Assembly (NCBI GenBank): GCA_003278535.1
Contig: QCEG01000001.1
Location: 62,001 to 126,000, forward strand
Direction: 5' to 3'
Length of the DNA stretch: 64,000 nt
Origin: Prochlorococcus sp. AG-355-N18
GTDB taxonomy: Bacteria; Cyanobacteriota; Cyanobacteriia; PCC-6307; Cyanobiaceae
Both the position numbers and the translations under genes were made by a program. A model generated the notes under the pieces. The model had not been told where the DNA came from and did not search any database. It saw only the letters and a list, made by a program, of their open reading frames with translations. Below, piece after piece: positions 45,371 to 51,013 of the stretch (position 1 is its first letter; every line of letters begins with the position of its first letter).

Positions 45371-46447
45371 TTGAATAAGAAGAACTTAGTGAAAAATGAT
45401 GCGTTAATAATTGATGATTTGCATCATAAATATGATAAGCGCGAATGTTCAAATTGGATATTAAACGAAATTAACCTGAAAATTGAAAATGGCGAATTGT
45501 TAGGGTTGCTTGGTCCTTCTGGTTGCGGAAAAACTACTCTTTTAAGATTAATCGCGGGGTTCGAATATCCCTCTAAAGGGAGAATTTCTCTAAATGATGA
45601 GGAAATTTCAAATAAGCAAAAAATTCTTAGTCCTGAGAAAAGAAATATTGGTATGGTTTTTCAAGACTATGCACTTTTCCCTCACTTAACTGTTTTGGAA
45701 AATGTAATTTTTGGTTTGAAAAACAAAAAAGACAGATCTAGAGTTAATTATTTATTGAATGTTGTTGGTCTTGATAGTTTTGTTGAAAGGTACCCACATG
45801 AACTGTCTGGAGGCCAGAAACAAAGACTCGCAATTGCGAGAGCTCTTGCTCCAGGTACAAATTTTATTTTATTAGATGAACCTTTTTGTAGTCTTGATAT
45901 GCATGTCAAACTAAAATTGAGAAGTGAACTCCCTAATATCCTTAAAGGTTGTAATGCAAGCGGATTGATGGTTACTCATGATCCGGAAGAAGCGATGTCA
46001 ATTTGCGATAAGGTCGCCGTTATGAATGATGGGAATATACATCAAATTGACACGCCGATAAACCTTCTAAATAATCCCAAGACCATATTTGTTAGTAGTT
46101 TTATTTTGGGTAATAATATTATTAATCTCAAAAAAAATGGTAATTCATATATTTCTTGTTTAGGTGAAATAAATTGTTCAGAGTATTTGAAAAATAAAGG
46201 TATCACAAGCATGTCAATTTCGCCTAAATTTATTTCAATAAAAAGATCAGAATCTGGTGATGCGATTGTTATATCTAAAGAATTTCTTGGAGAATTTCTT
46301 ATATATAAAGTATCTATTAATGGAAACATATTGCGGGTTAGAACTGATATTAATAATCTTCTAAATAATGGTGATAAATGTTCTCTTACTATAAATAAAA
46401 ATAGTTATTATTTTTTATATCCTGGAGCACATAAGGTATATATATAG
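45371..46447 (+). CDS. futC: ABC transporter ATP-binding protein, probable ferric iron importer
   Basis: A 358-residue importer ATPase of the FbpC/PotA/CysA class: Walker A GPSGCGKTTLL, Q-loop GMVFQDYALFPHLTV, signature LSGGQKQRLAIARAL, Walker B FILLDEPFCSLD, switch THDPEEAM, and a C-terminal TOBE region. The FbpC-like short form and the nearby ferritin suggest Fe3+ uptake, but spermidine/sulfate specificity cannot be excluded; no permease or binding protein is adjacent. Start TTG at 45371; a GTG six codons later is an alternative. Confidence 0.8.
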   Translation: MNKKNLVKNDALIIDDLHHKYDKRECSNWILNEINLKIENGELLGLLGPSGCGKTTLLRLIAGFEYPSKGRISLNDEEISNKQKILSPEKRNIGMVFQDYALFPHLTVLENVIFGLKNKKDRSRVNYLLNVVGLDSFVERYPHELSGGQKQRLAIARALAPGTNFILLDEPFCSLDMHVKLKLRSELPNILKGCNASGLMVTHDPEEAMSICDKVAVMNDGNIHQIDTPINLLNNPKTIFVSSFILGNNIINLKKNGNSYISCLGEINCSEYLKNKGITSMSISPKFISIKRSESGDAIVISKEFLGEFLIYKVSINGNILRVRTDINNLLNNGDKCSLTINKNSYYFLYPGAHKVYI

Positions 46448-46690: not shown

Positions 46691-47245
46691 ATGAATGAAA
46701 ATAATCTAAAAACAAAGAAATTAATTAATTTTGGTCCATCTGGAAGAGCTGTCGCTCAACCGATAGATAATAGTTTATTGGATAACATTTTTGAACATCT
46801 AACAATGGAAAGATATGCCAATGTTCAATATTTTTCTATGTATCTATGGTTTCAAGAACGTGATTTAAATGGATTTGCCTCTCATTTTCTTAGTGAATCA
46901 AAAGGCGAAATGGAACATGCTCAGAAATTTGCAGATTACTTAATCGCAAGAGGACAAAGCGTAAAATTAGATGAAATTCCTGCACCTGTTCAAACATGGG
47001 ATTCAATAGAGGAACTTATTTCTTATTCTTTTAATATGGAAGCGGATTTAACTTCATCTCTTCAACAACTTTATTCCATATCAGAAAGAATTTCAGATAC
47101 AAGAACTAACGTATTTTTAGATCCTATTATAGAGGCTCAAACAAAATCAGAAGATGAATTTGCGAACATACTGGGCAAGGTAAAGTTTGCTTCTAATCAA
47201 CCTTCGGCAATATTACTAATAGATAGTGATTTAAAGAAAAAATAA
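46691..47245 (+). CDS. Ferritin
   Basis: Iron-storage protein that oxidises Fe2+ and stores it in a 24-subunit cage. The 184-residue four-helix product has ERYANVQYFSMYLWFQERDLNG (first helix, ferroxidase Glu), the ESKGEMEHAQKFADYLIARG motif with the ExxH ligands, and EAQTKSEDEFANI with the last acidic ligands. No bacterioferritin heme Met is evident. The 243-base upstream gap carries the Fur-like box. The 3' end overlaps the convergent small gene by 15 bases. Confidence 0.92.
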   Translation: MNENNLKTKKLINFGPSGRAVAQPIDNSLLDNIFEHLTMERYANVQYFSMYLWFQERDLNGFASHFLSESKGEMEHAQKFADYLIARGQSVKLDEIPAPVQTWDSIEELISYSFNMEADLTSSLQQLYSISERISDTRTNVFLDPIIEAQTKSEDEFANILGKVKFASNQPSAILLIDSDLKKK

Positions 47246-47522: not shown

Positions 47523-48110
47523 TTATAGCGGTGATGTTTCAATAAAAGAAGGTGCAACACTAACTGTTTGTGTTCCAATAGGAGCTATTAATAACTCAGA
47601 TGATCTTAATTTAGAAATTAATCTTGTTGACGTTACACGAGTAGAACCGATTAATTCACCAATTCTTTCATGGGTTAACCTAAAAGGTAACTCACACCAT
47701 TGCCCACATCTCCTACCTAAACGATTTACTAGTATTGAAAACAACGCTTGTAATCTCTGTTCTGCATTTCCTGAGTGTCTAATCCTAAGGAGTTGCAAAG
47801 TCCATTCATTTACTGCATCGAAACCAATATTCTCATCAATATTTACGTTGCTGTGAAAAGATAAATCTGTAAGTGCTTCAACACAGACACCTTCGCTACA
47901 TAAAAGGTCCGTTCTTAATTGATCTCCTGATTGTAAAAATGCGAGTGTCATTCCTTCAGTTTCTTCACAAGGGCAATAAACTCTAGCAATTCCACTTTCA
48001 ACTTCTAGGCATGTCCCCTTTGGTCTTGAGGAGGGATCTATTAATACAGATTGTCCAGTTATGATTCTTACTGATTTTGAGGGAGATTCTCCATAACTAT
48101 GGAAATTCAT
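47523..48110 (-). CDS. Crp/Fnr-family transcription regulator
   Basis: A 195-residue regulator: N-terminal cupin-like sensor domain with CLEVESGIARVYCPCEETEGMTL, and a C-terminal winged helix LTHERIGELIGSTRVTSTRLISKL. The sensor lacks a clear cAMP-binding arginine motif, and the CPC pair might respond to redox or metal. I prefer the ATG at 48110 because the longer frame (from 48143) would run through a Fur-like box at 48123-48141. It may be the iron-linked Crp regulator of this cluster (inference). Confidence 0.85.
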   Translation of the reverse strand: MNFHSYGESPSKSVRIITGQSVLIDPSSRPKGTCLEVESGIARVYCPCEETEGMTLAFLQSGDQLRTDLLCSEGVCVEALTDLSFHSNVNIDENIGFDAVNEWTLQLLRIRHSGNAEQRLQALFSILVNRLGRRCGQWCELPFRLTHERIGELIGSTRVTSTRLISKLRSSELLIAPIGTQTVSVAPSFIETSPL

Positions 48111-48122
48111 TAATTTAAACTT

Positions 48123-48141
48123 GATAATGAGAATTATTGTC
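48123..48141 (+). promoter_or_regulatory. Putative Fur box 12 bases upstream of the Crp-family gene
   Basis: GATAATGAGAATTATTGTC agrees with GATAATGATAATCATTATC at 16 of 19 positions by hand count. It lies directly upstream of the chosen start of the Crp-family gene on the minus strand. Its first 12 bases recur as a reverse complement at 48175-48186. Confidence 0.65.
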
Positions 48142-48173
48142 AATTATGCACTAAAAAATTACTTATTGCAATA

Positions 48174-48263: not shown

Positions 48264-48452
48264 ATGAGTGTTAATAGAGTTTGCTTTAATTGTGGATGTT
48301 CTTCATTCGTCTCAGACCGATCTTTAGGAGGTAAGATTGTCTGCTCTAAATGTGGATCTTCTTCATTTAAAAATAAATCCTCTTCATTTTTAAAAAGTAA
48401 AAAATTAGTATTTCTTGCTATTGCGATAGTTATTTTTATAATTGTTATTTAG
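48264..48452 (+). CDS. Small zinc-ribbon protein with C-terminal membrane span
   Basis: A 62-residue protein with two CxxC-type pairs (CFNCGCSSF and CSKCGSSSF) forming a zinc ribbon at residues about 7-34, a Ser/Lys linker, and a C-terminal hydrophobic helix (LVFLAIAIVIFIIVI). This tail-anchored arrangement could tether a metal or redox sensor to the membrane. It faces two Fur-like boxes upstream. The last 8 bases overlap the convergent ModF-like ATPase gene. Confidence 0.75.
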   Translation: MSVNRVCFNCGCSSFVSDRSLGGKIVCSKCGSSSFKNKSSSFLKSKKLVFLAIAIVIFIIVI

Positions 48453-49233
48453 ATAATCTGTTTATATTCCAAAGTCCATTATTATTAGTTACCTCTACTT
48501 GAATACCAAATAACTTACTAAAATTTTCACTATTCATAACCTTATTTTGATCTCCATCAGCGATTATTTTGCCATCTTTTAGCATTATGACCCGGTTATA
48601 AATTTTGGTAATCGTTGAAATATCATGAGTGACGCATAAAATTTTCGTATTTAATTTTGATAATTCATTAACCTTATCAATTACAAAAAACTTTGATTTA
48701 TAATCTAAATTTGCAATTGGTTCATCTAAGATTAAAATCTCCGGTTTTTTGATTAATGCCCTTGCAATGAGAGAAATTTGTTTTTCTCCATCTGATAAAT
48801 AGGAAAAATTCTTTTTAGATAAATTAGAAATATTCATTTTCTTCATGATTTTTTCCACCTTATTAGAATCTCTTTCAGATTTTTTTTGTATATAACAATA
48901 TCTTCCATATAGTCCACTTAAAATTAAATCAAAAACTTGTAAATTTGGATTTATTCTATTTTTTATATCATTATTTACGGTACTTATTTTATTTCTGAGT
49001 TCCCATAAATTTACAAGTTCTTTGTCAAAAATCTTTAGTTTCGATTCATTAGTTACTACAGGGTATAAGTTTCTATTAATTATTTCAATTAGAGATGATT
49101 TACCTGAACCATTTGGTCCAATTAATATTACATTTTCTGAATAAGATATCTTTAAATTTAAATCTTTAATTACTCTAAAGCCATTTTTAAAACAAGTTAT
49201 ATTTTTTGCGTCAAACCAAAATTTATTAAACAC
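48445..49233 (-). CDS. ModF/PhrA-like ABC ATPase
   Basis: A 262-residue ATP-binding protein: Walker A GPNGSGKSS (residues 39-47), the family segment NLWELRNKISTV...LQVFDLILSGLYG, a non-standard signature LSDGEKQ (Asp for the usual Gly), Walker B ILILDEP and switch CVTHD. This fits COG1119. The start is GTG, overlapping by one base the stop of the 33-residue peptide. No permease or solute-binding gene is nearby, so substrate and even transport role are unknown. Confidence 0.82.
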   Translation of the reverse strand: MFNKFWFDAKNITCFKNGFRVIKDLNLKISYSENVILIGPNGSGKSSLIEIINRNLYPVVTNESKLKIFDKELVNLWELRNKISTVNNDIKNRINPNLQVFDLILSGLYGRYCYIQKKSERDSNKVEKIMKKMNISNLSKKNFSYLSDGEKQISLIARALIKKPEILILDEPIANLDYKSKFFVIDKVNELSKLNTKILCVTHDISTITKIYNRVIMLKDGKIIADGDQNKVMNSENFSKLFGIQVEVTNNNGLWNINRLSK

Positions 49234-49334
49234 TAAAACTTATTACTCCAAAATATAATCAATTGAATCGAGCTTAAGATAAATATAAAGAGATAAAGCC
49301 AATTCAACCATGAAGGTCTATCTACTTTCTTCAT
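49233..49334 (-). CDS. 33-residue membrane peptide between Rieske oxygenase and ABC ATPase
   Basis: Reads MKKVDRPSWLNWLYLFIFIL, then SSIQLIIFWSNKF: a positively charged N terminus and one hydrophobic helix. Its ATG is three bases after the Rieske oxygenase stop and its TAG shares one base with the ATPase GTG, so it sits in a tight, translationally coupled operon. I do not recognise it; the size suits a small subunit or anchor. Confidence 0.65.
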   Translation of the reverse strand: MKKVDRPSWLNWLYLFIFILSSIQLIIFWSNKF

Positions 49335-49337
49335 GGA

Positions 49338-50660
49338 TTATATTATTAACATAAAAAATATGAGCGGAGCAGCAAATCTTACAAATGTTTTTCTAATAAT
49401 ATCTATATTATTTACAATTTCTAACTTCTTTATCTCAGGAGGATATTTCAATATAACTTTGTCATATACATCTAGATTTTGGGTTTTGTTAATATTTTTC
49501 CATGGTTCATCTTTTTCTTCAGACTTCTTGTACCACTTCCAAAAATAATTAATTATCCTATCTTCTCCCAATAATTTTATTTCATCCTTACTTATAAATC
49601 CCATATCGTGATTATATGTTTGTGTTTTTAAAATCATATAATCCTCATTGAATATCTTATAAAAAATCTTTCTTTGAGTCTCTTTAAATAATAAGAGATT
49701 CTTAAGCAGTTTATTTTGTAGAAATTTCCTGTAGTGTCTTACTATCACTCTTGCTTTGTTGTTTCCTAGAGGGATATGATCTAAAACTTGTAAATATCTT
49801 GATGAGGAAGGATCGTCTTTGTAAATTAATATCCTTCCTGGAGGGATATACTTTATCCGAATGAATTCTTTTGTAGGGTCATTCTTGTAATAATAAATAC
49901 TTTCAATGTATGAGGGATTAATATTAATTTTCTGGTTAAAACTAACTAATACGTTTTTATTCACATCTTTATCTGGGATTGTATCGCCATGAACCCAAAA
50001 GATATGAAGGATATCTAGGTGATTTTCAATAATCCTTGACCAATCACATTTGAAGTCGACTAATACCTCTTCAAAGACATAATCCTTATGAGAAAAACCA
50101 TTTTCATATAATTCATAGTTACTTATAGGTCTATCTTCATTTATATTATTTAAATCAGTCTCAGATTTTTTAGAAAAATGTACAAAAATATATCCATTTT
50201 TTTCTGAAGTTTTGTATTGAGATAAATGAATCCTTTTGGCGTAGTTATCGTAGTTATTATCAACTATATGGCGACATGTTATTCTGTCGAGATTTTGGCA
50301 ACTTCCTCCAGATGAAAACTTAGCGCCATGATATGGGCAGGTTATTACTCCATCTGATAATGTCCCTCCAAAAAAGGAGGCCCCTCTATGTGGACAAATA
50401 TTTTTAATGCACCTAACGTTTTTATTTTCATCTCTATAAAGAACAAGAGGCTCATCATAAAGTGAAAAATAATATAGCTTATTTTTTTTTAGTTCTTTAG
50501 AGGGACAAATTGCATACCAACCAAATAAACCTATATTTAAATCTTTTTGAGTTTCTCTAATATCAAACGAGTCAATTTTTACTACCGTTCCTTTTTTAAA
50601 TGGCTTAAGAACGGTATTAAAGTCTTTTGATTTAAAAAAATTAATTTGTCTGTTTTCCAT
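49338..50660 (-). CDS. Rieske non-heme iron oxygenase, possible chlorophyllide a oxygenase
   Basis: A 440-residue oxygenase with the Rieske cluster ligands C89 and H91 (CPHRGASFFGG) and C108 and H111 (CPYHGAKF), the mononuclear iron site N213, D216, H219 and H224 (ENHLDILHIFWVH), and a C-terminal hydrophobic helix (about residues 426-440). The layout, with a C-terminal membrane anchor, resembles the PaO/TIC55/CAO group. Prochlorococcus makes chlorophyll b with a divergent CAO of this type, so this is a candidate; the specific assignment is inference. It leads a three-gene operon. Confidence 0.8.
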   Translation of the reverse strand: MENRQINFFKSKDFNTVLKPFKKGTVVKIDSFDIRETQKDLNIGLFGWYAICPSKELKKNKLYYFSLYDEPLVLYRDENKNVRCIKNICPHRGASFFGGTLSDGVITCPYHGAKFSSGGSCQNLDRITCRHIVDNNYDNYAKRIHLSQYKTSEKNGYIFVHFSKKSETDLNNINEDRPISNYELYENGFSHKDYVFEEVLVDFKCDWSRIIENHLDILHIFWVHGDTIPDKDVNKNVLVSFNQKININPSYIESIYYYKNDPTKEFIRIKYIPPGRILIYKDDPSSSRYLQVLDHIPLGNNKARVIVRHYRKFLQNKLLKNLLLFKETQRKIFYKIFNEDYMILKTQTYNHDMGFISKDEIKLLGEDRIINYFWKWYKKSEEKDEPWKNINKTQNLDVYDKVILKYPPEIKKLEIVNNIDIIRKTFVRFAAPLIFFMLII

Positions 50661-50818: not shown

Positions 50819-51013
50819 TCATGTTTTTTGTATCTTTTGTGATTCTTTCAAATTTTTTATGTAATCAATAGCATCATCAATATTTTTGTGGAAATTACAT
50901 TGGCCCAAGTAACAACCTATAAATCTTAAAAATTTTCTCTTGCCACCACTAATTTCATATCTATGTATTGTTCCGCCATCTATAGGAGCATAAATAAGTT
51001 CTGGTAGTGCCAT
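50819..51013 (-). CDS. Hypothetical protein, 64 residues
   Basis: A small soluble basic protein with a GGTIHRYEISGGKRKFLRF beta-hairpin-like segment and a C-terminal helix (NIDDAIDYIKNLKES). Two cysteines at about 34 and 39 (CYLGQC) form a CxxxxC pair. No known family recognised. Isolated on the minus strand with 158 bases separating it from the Rieske gene start. Confidence 0.6.
   Translation of the reverse strand: MALPELIYAPIDGGTIHRYEISGGKRKFLRFIGCYLGQCNFHKNIDDAIDYIKNLKESQKIQKT

Follow-up and report, generated by a model that had tools for sequence, protein, structure and literature searches.

Do three tightly packed genes in a Prochlorococcus genome encode the parts of a single chlorophyll b machine, or is an enzyme of known kind simply expressed together with two genes that have lives of their own? 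No known phototroph is more abundant than Prochlorococcus, whose hallmark pigment is chlorophyll b. From the work of Satoh and Tanaka in 2006, an enzyme named PcCao is reportedly the chlorophyll b synthase of this genus. The window analysed here, a stretch of 64,000 nucleotides from the 1.66 Mb genome of Prochlorococcus sp. AG-355-N18, carries a Rieske oxygenase gene followed head to tail by a gene for a 33 amino acid peptide (designated PEP) and a gene for a lone ABC ATPase (Table 1). A preliminary description of the locus put the oxygenase forward as a candidate for the divergent chlorophyllide a oxygenase (CAO) of Prochlorococcus, in which case the peptide may be a subunit or anchor of that enzyme and the ATPase, likened to ModF, a partner in pigment or cofactor handling.

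The cao locus

The arrangement of the three minus-strand genes, their lengths and their coordinates are as first described: three bases separate the oxygenase gene (cao) from that encoding PEP, and the TAG stop codon of the latter overlaps the GTG start codon of the ATPase gene by one base. The LSDGE signature of the ATPase and the hydrophobic C-terminal tail of the oxygenase are likewise present. A complete ABC transporter would have a permease gene directly beside that for the ATPase; in the window the adjoining genes are instead those for PEP and a small zinc-ribbon protein.

Table 1 Features of the cao locus, with positions numbered along the window
Feature	Position	Strand	Properties	Basis
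cao (PcCao, almost certainly), Rieske oxygenase	49338..50660	(-)	440 aa, C-terminal hydrophobic helix	ORF, PF00355, orthologue pattern, elimination, Rieske-oxygenase fold
PEP	49233..49334	(-)	33 aa, one hydrophobic span	ORF, conservation in high-light types, dN/dS, profile A2
Lone ABC ATPase	48445..49233	(-)	262 aa, GTG start; GPNGSGKS, LSDGE, LDEP, VTHD	ORF, PF00005
Small zinc-ribbon protein	48264..48452	(+), convergent	62 aa, C-terminal hydrophobic tail	ORF; weak Pfam matches below cut-off
Crp/Fnr-family regulator	47523..48143	(-)		PF13545; tblastn matches in many loci; conserved neighbourhood
Ferritin	46691..47245	(+)		PF00210; iron-related neighbourhood
ABC importer ATPase, presumably FutC-like (iron)	45371..46447	(+)		Pfam/NCBIfam models

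Zinc-ribbon proteins of 62–83 amino acids with a C-terminal hydrophobic tail are frequent neighbours of the ATPase, LLIV-like genomes (see below) included; besides the window gene, examples are found in L064–L083, L074, L076, L253 and L255. A 60–76 amino acid protein (GGTIHxYE...LGCYLG.C.F) with no curated family match is encoded by the gene immediately preceding cao at two loci, the window (50819–51013) and L065 (6982–7167), and near cao in L069 (750–932) and L080 (9931–10161).

Identity of the oxygenase

The oxygenase scores 78.6 bits against the Pfam Rieske domain model PF00355 and 17.1 bits against the PaO model PF08417, the latter being under the curated cut-off of 27. The Rieske CxH...CxxH motif, a downstream ENHxDILH and an EDY motif are all present, and residues C89, H91, C108, H111, H214, H219 and D340 are invariant in an alignment of 16 diverse oxygenase sequences; we take these conserved positions to be the iron ligands. 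The predicted structure (mean pLDDT 66.9) displays a Rieske-oxygenase fold with a helix predicted at residues 411–439. Its best fold match is dicamba monooxygenase (Z 23.0 over 308 residues), which, together with SxtT/GxtA, shares the fold of residues ~43–388 with Z scores of 21.6–23.0 at 14–17% identity. These are soluble enzymes, however, and the alignment ends at residue 388, before the C-terminal helix of the window oxygenase. None of the fold matches listed is a CAO, PaO or TIC55 chain, which has no bearing on whether such structures exist.

Relatives of cao scoring above 400 bits were found in 90 of 300 Cyanobiaceae genomes and pieces of the gene in two more (G210 and G172), after which scores fall to 63.6 bits at best. 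Among the genomes lacking a strong match are the larger ones, along with several that are small and for the most part incomplete. Names could be attached to the best 80 of 234 relatives, 78 of which are from Prochlorococcus and two from uncultured Synechococcaceae; on this evidence (90 of 300 genomes, genus names from 80 loci) cao is present across Prochlorococcus and absent from Synechococcus. The closest named relatives include those of Prochlorococcus MIT 9401, MIT 9314 and MIT 9201, which we take to be high-light types. In the cao tree, which is midpoint-rooted, the high-light branch is long. Among viral contigs, 25 stretches fitted the search pattern and none is related to cao, disposing of the idea of a phage-borne copy.

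The number of Rieske proteins per genome is also informative. In 22 chosen near-complete cao-bearing genomes, six of them of the window's genus, the Rieske model identified exactly two loci in every case: cao and a second with a frame of 179–217 amino acids that is taken as PetC. In the source genome (G000) the PetC-size gene adjoins petA, encoding cytochrome f. The source genome also encodes a third Rieske protein beside an ABC system: an extra oxygenase (L002:1417–2439) located directly after an ABC permease-like frame and a nitrate/sulfonate-type ATPase. This protein was considered as the CAO and rejected, there being no third Rieske locus in any of the other 22 cao-bearing genomes.

The identification of the window oxygenase as PcCao, the already known Prochlorococcus chlorophyll b synthase, is almost certain, since the phyletic pattern and elimination among the Rieske proteins both lead to it, as do papers naming PcCao; the original suggestion that this is the divergent CAO of Prochlorococcus is supported. 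Passages of one paper, which cites Satoh and Tanaka (doi 10.1093/pcp/pcl026), treat PcCao as the Prochlorococcus-specific chlorophyll b synthase (PMC3441193), and passages of another list PcCAO, CK_2331, as the predicted synthase (PMC10284923). For MED4 the Rieske protein listed is PMM0808, probably encoded by the same gene as that in the window. The window oxygenase shares with PcCao its restriction to Prochlorococcus, and no other Rieske oxygenase of the genomes examined qualifies as a candidate; no difference between the two was found, the likeness being drawn from phyletic pattern and elimination. With the CAO of plants and of Prochloron/Prochlorothrix it has in common the Rieske and mononuclear-iron architecture and presumably the reaction, but it falls below the PaO Pfam cut-off and a common sequence family is not implied here.

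That same PaO score, and the fact that the nearest solved structures are aromatic- and saxitoxin-type oxygenases, would suit a non-pigment Rieske monooxygenase, with another enzyme acting as the true chlorophyll b synthase. We consider this highly improbable: the window-type gene encodes the only Rieske oxygenase common to the 22 genomes, its phyletic pattern matches that of chlorophyll b, and PcCao is reported as the synthase in the passages cited above.

A family-wide membrane peptide

PEP is a real protein. Its 33-residue frame, hydrophobic over residues 10–28 (mean Kyte–Doolittle value 2.06), is present in all 102 readable high-light loci of the 104 tried, these being drawn from two collections that share some genomes (e.g. 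L120, L008) and so not all independent; the loci left out are L025, missed by the search pattern, and L123, which is too short. The distance from cao to PEP is 3 nt in 93 of the 102, and the exact -1 overlap with the GTG codon is seen in 95. A dN/dS of 0.085 was obtained from 70 distinct coding sequences, all of the one length that 96 of the 102 loci share, with 21, 3 and 26 of the 33 columns being variable at codon positions 1, 2 and 3, respectively. The conservation of the frame between strains that the preliminary description had asked for is therefore borne out, and a chance ORF is ruled out by its presence in 102 of 102 readable loci together with this dN/dS.

Peptides related to PEP, 33–37 amino acids in length, are encoded directly after cao in many low-light types, and residues R6, P7, W9, N11, W12, L15, F18, S22, L25 and W29 are invariant in 23 PEP sequences. 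A profile built from 23 peptides (A2) matches 123 of 151 Cyanobiaceae genomes and 88 of the 95 good ones, cao-less genomes included, some of the contributing genomes being among those scored and matching by construction. PEP is single copy in 122 of the 123, the exception being G133. A search with a single sequence at the loose limit of E ≤ 1 matched 263 of 300 Cyanobiaceae genomes. When the profile was applied to a sample of the phylum, 13 of 13 Cyanobiaceae were among the matches listed, and the 181 genomes from outside the family gave two weak matches (E about 0.007–0.008). Genomes with no strong cao match that nonetheless encode PEP include G034, G075, G101 and G123. The matches across Cyanobiaceae rule out a protein found only in Prochlorococcus: PEP is a near-core membrane protein of ~36 amino acids in the Cyanobiaceae and is not specific to CAO.

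Up to E = 10, the peptides tried had no match in the Pfam and NCBIfam releases and a composite peptide query found no solved chain, though short sequences are easily missed in such searches. No paper on PEP or on a cao–PEP–ATPase operon was noticed among the open-licence PMC papers listed. PsbM, PetL and NdhP are small single-span subunits of photosystem, cytochrome b6f and NDH complexes. PEP resembles these and similar subunits in its length of ~30–40 amino acids, single span, single copy and family-wide occurrence, but differs in being without a match to solved chains or to Pfam or NCBIfam models. In the Synechococcus-like loci L174, L175 and L177–L179, PEP lies near a protein of ~100–130 amino acids (e.g. 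LETFLKRAQQRFGDQFDYSGIQW in L174).

The lone ABC ATPase

The ATPase scores 98.5 bits against the Pfam ABC_tran model (PF00005). Its description as ModF-like holds only loosely, the ModF model NF008186, whose cut-off is 459 bits, giving it 91.5; among NCBIfam models it scores highest with that for an HmuV-type heme-transporter ATPase, at 132.7 against a cut-off of 261. In a search of the PDB, two-domain ABCB-type exporters gave the top scores (up to 194.5 bits), the best single-domain chains being 4hzi (184.2 bits) and 2ihy (174.1 bits), which we take to be orphan/COG1119-type ABC ATPases. Both are single-domain proteins like the window ATPase and are matched over nearly its full length, but as they are outscored by the two-domain exporters their kinship with it is unproven.

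The cao-linked ATPases, the unlinked ones of LLIV-like genomes and the lone ones of Synechococcus-like genomes form one clade (99/99) against four other ABC ATPases in a tree that is otherwise poorly resolved. When ten genomes were scored with a family profile, members reached at least 354 bits and the other ABC ATPases listed no more than 133. Five of the ten encode a member and five (G031, G052, G073, G034 and G045) do not. In G073 neither cao nor PEP nor the ATPase is strongly matched, perhaps owing to an assembly gap. Two genomes that each consist of a single contig, G031 and G052, retain cao and PEP and lack the ATPase, and the ATPase is therefore not needed for keeping cao. Outside the Cyanobiaceae, no match at 1e-50 was obtained in 97 genomes of other families (a phylum sample in which part of the candidates were scored). 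FecCD permeases were rejected as partners, their matches being weak and none lying near the ATPase. The protein is best explained as a dispensable orphan ABC ATPase.

Linkage of the three genes

Linkage beyond the high-light types was followed in 67 cao loci from 66 genomes, those of G270 and G152 having been left out of the 69 listed as high-light. The ATPase gene follows cao within 3 kb in 60 of these, so the conserved linkage that had been expected of it does exist. PEP follows within ~900 nt in 37 of the 67 and is joined in the cluster by a downstream flavodoxin gene (isiB) in 14. In 25 loci the ATPase gene follows cao and PEP is not within ~900 nt; PEP is present elsewhere in seven such genomes (G056, G003, G060, G086, G110, G130 and G146) and was not found by the profile in the drafts G019, G040 and G041. 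Two loci have PEP and no ATPase gene after cao.

Five cao loci belong to genomes of 1.8–2.6 Mb in genus g29, to which we give the label LLIV-like (G029, G071, G120 and two of G098); here PEP, ATPase and flavodoxin genes are all absent downstream. The gene after cao is mfd in both G071 and G029, where PEP is found away from cao, preceding isiB by ~660 and ~330 nt, respectively. That low-light types carry the peptide gene ahead of isiB rules out the notion that the high-light peptide simply replaces isiB. At one G098 locus the ATPase gene lies ~1 kb upstream of cao on the opposite strand. The two cao genes of this draft (L252 and L253) are diverged, being 55% identical, and the assembly may be mixed; one lies before mfd and the other near an ATPase/zinc-ribbon pair. 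The LLIV-like state may have come first in the assembly of the cluster, or dispersal may have come later.

The wider neighbourhood is recognisable in many loci, with pcb, ferritin, Crp-type regulator and zinc-ribbon genes around cao, the flavodoxin and Pcb neighbours exceeding their NCBIfam cut-offs. In G003 (L187) the relocated PEP gene is flanked on both sides by antenna-type genes (PF00421); it is also immediately preceded by an 85 amino acid frame. At least 21 of the 67 loci have a gene for an ABC exporter ATPase that is transcribed divergently from cao, and in L067 (7205–9812) this gene is followed by genes for two ABC-2 membrane proteins (PF06182). The exporter carries its own ATPase and may, in those non-high-light loci, be the membrane partner of the lone one. 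It was not seen upstream of cao in two high-light loci with long flanks (L081 and L082).

Parts of the enzyme or partners in expression?

What, then, are PEP and the ATPase doing beside cao? The near-invariant packing of the three genes in high-light types and the adjacency of cao and the ATPase gene could reflect a functional partnership. In its strongest form this would be a three-component chlorophyll b machine, PEP being a subunit or anchor of CAO and the ATPase loading or moving pigment or cofactor. The translational coupling in all 102 readable high-light loci and the linkage elsewhere (PEP in 37 and the ATPase in 60 of the 67 loci) are what such a machine would predict, but an obligate CAO subunit should occur only with cao, and PEP does not: most related cyanobacteria have PEP without cao, so it is probably not just a part of CAO. 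PEP was moreover not found after cao in the 25 ATPase-keeping and five LLIV-like loci, the ATPase occurs in cao-less Cyanobiaceae and is missing from the cao-keeping G031 and G052, and cao has a predicted C-terminal helix of its own. Both proposals of the preliminary description, PEP as subunit or anchor and the ATPase as pigment or cofactor partner, are weakened by these observations. We regard the three-component machine as distinctly unlikely; PEP and the ATPase are probably not obligate parts of CAO.

The cluster is conserved, and it brings together an oxygenase of known kind and two genes that also exist without cao. We are reasonably confident that the oxygenase is PcCao and that PEP and the ATPase are older Cyanobiaceae genes that have joined cao in a co-expressed iron/antenna cluster, the ABC-2 genes beside the exporter ATPase gene lowering this confidence slightly. 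In line with the known chemistry of CAO, PcCao would act on (divinyl) chlorophyll(ide) a, oxidising its C7 methyl group to give the formyl group of chlorophyll b by means of a Rieske [2Fe–2S] centre and a mononuclear iron. Reduced ferredoxin or flavodoxin may serve as electron donor, and the enzyme would be held at the membrane by its C-terminal helix. PEP and the ATPase were probably brought into the cao transcription unit, and in this cluster chlorophyll b synthesis would be co-expressed with antenna and iron/electron-carrier functions. PEP itself most likely resides in the photosynthetic membrane, judging from its co-location with the genes for CAO and flavodoxin and, in a single genome, with those for antenna proteins. 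From these arrangements we infer that the genes are expressed together to serve antenna and iron economy, and a thylakoid role for PEP.

A sharper form of this explanation, compatible with the identity of PcCao, makes PEP a docking or assembly factor for flavodoxin/ferredoxin or for antenna or photosystem complexes, linked to cao because both require reduced carrier at the membrane. The separation of PEP from cao and its position ahead of isiB in G071 and G029, the 14 loci with cao and isiB in one cluster and the placing of PEP between antenna-type genes in G003 all point this way, but photosynthetic neighbours were not seen around PEP in the cao-less Synechococcus-like loci inspected and no solved chain matches it. 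We hold this reading tentatively, as possible rather than likely. Bolder still, and in our estimation rather unlikely, is the proposal that the photosynthetic membrane of picocyanobacteria has in PEP a subunit, common to the whole family and so far undescribed, by which flavodoxin/ferredoxin (or antenna in the course of assembly) is docked at the thylakoid, and that in Prochlorococcus its translation is tied to that of the chlorophyll b synthase.

Concluding remarks

The findings are mostly annotation: the oxygenase is almost certainly an already known enzyme, and PEP is an unnamed membrane protein. They place the chlorophyll b synthase of Prochlorococcus in an iron/antenna neighbourhood, with flavodoxin in some lineages, and they bring out a strongly conserved Cyanobiaceae membrane protein to which nothing in the searched releases of Pfam and NCBIfam corresponds. 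In marine Synechococcus, which lacks cao, CAO cannot explain the presence of PEP, and it is the PEP family that deserves work at the bench. Should PEP prove to be a docking subunit tied to cao, pigment oxidation would receive its electrons where the antenna is built.
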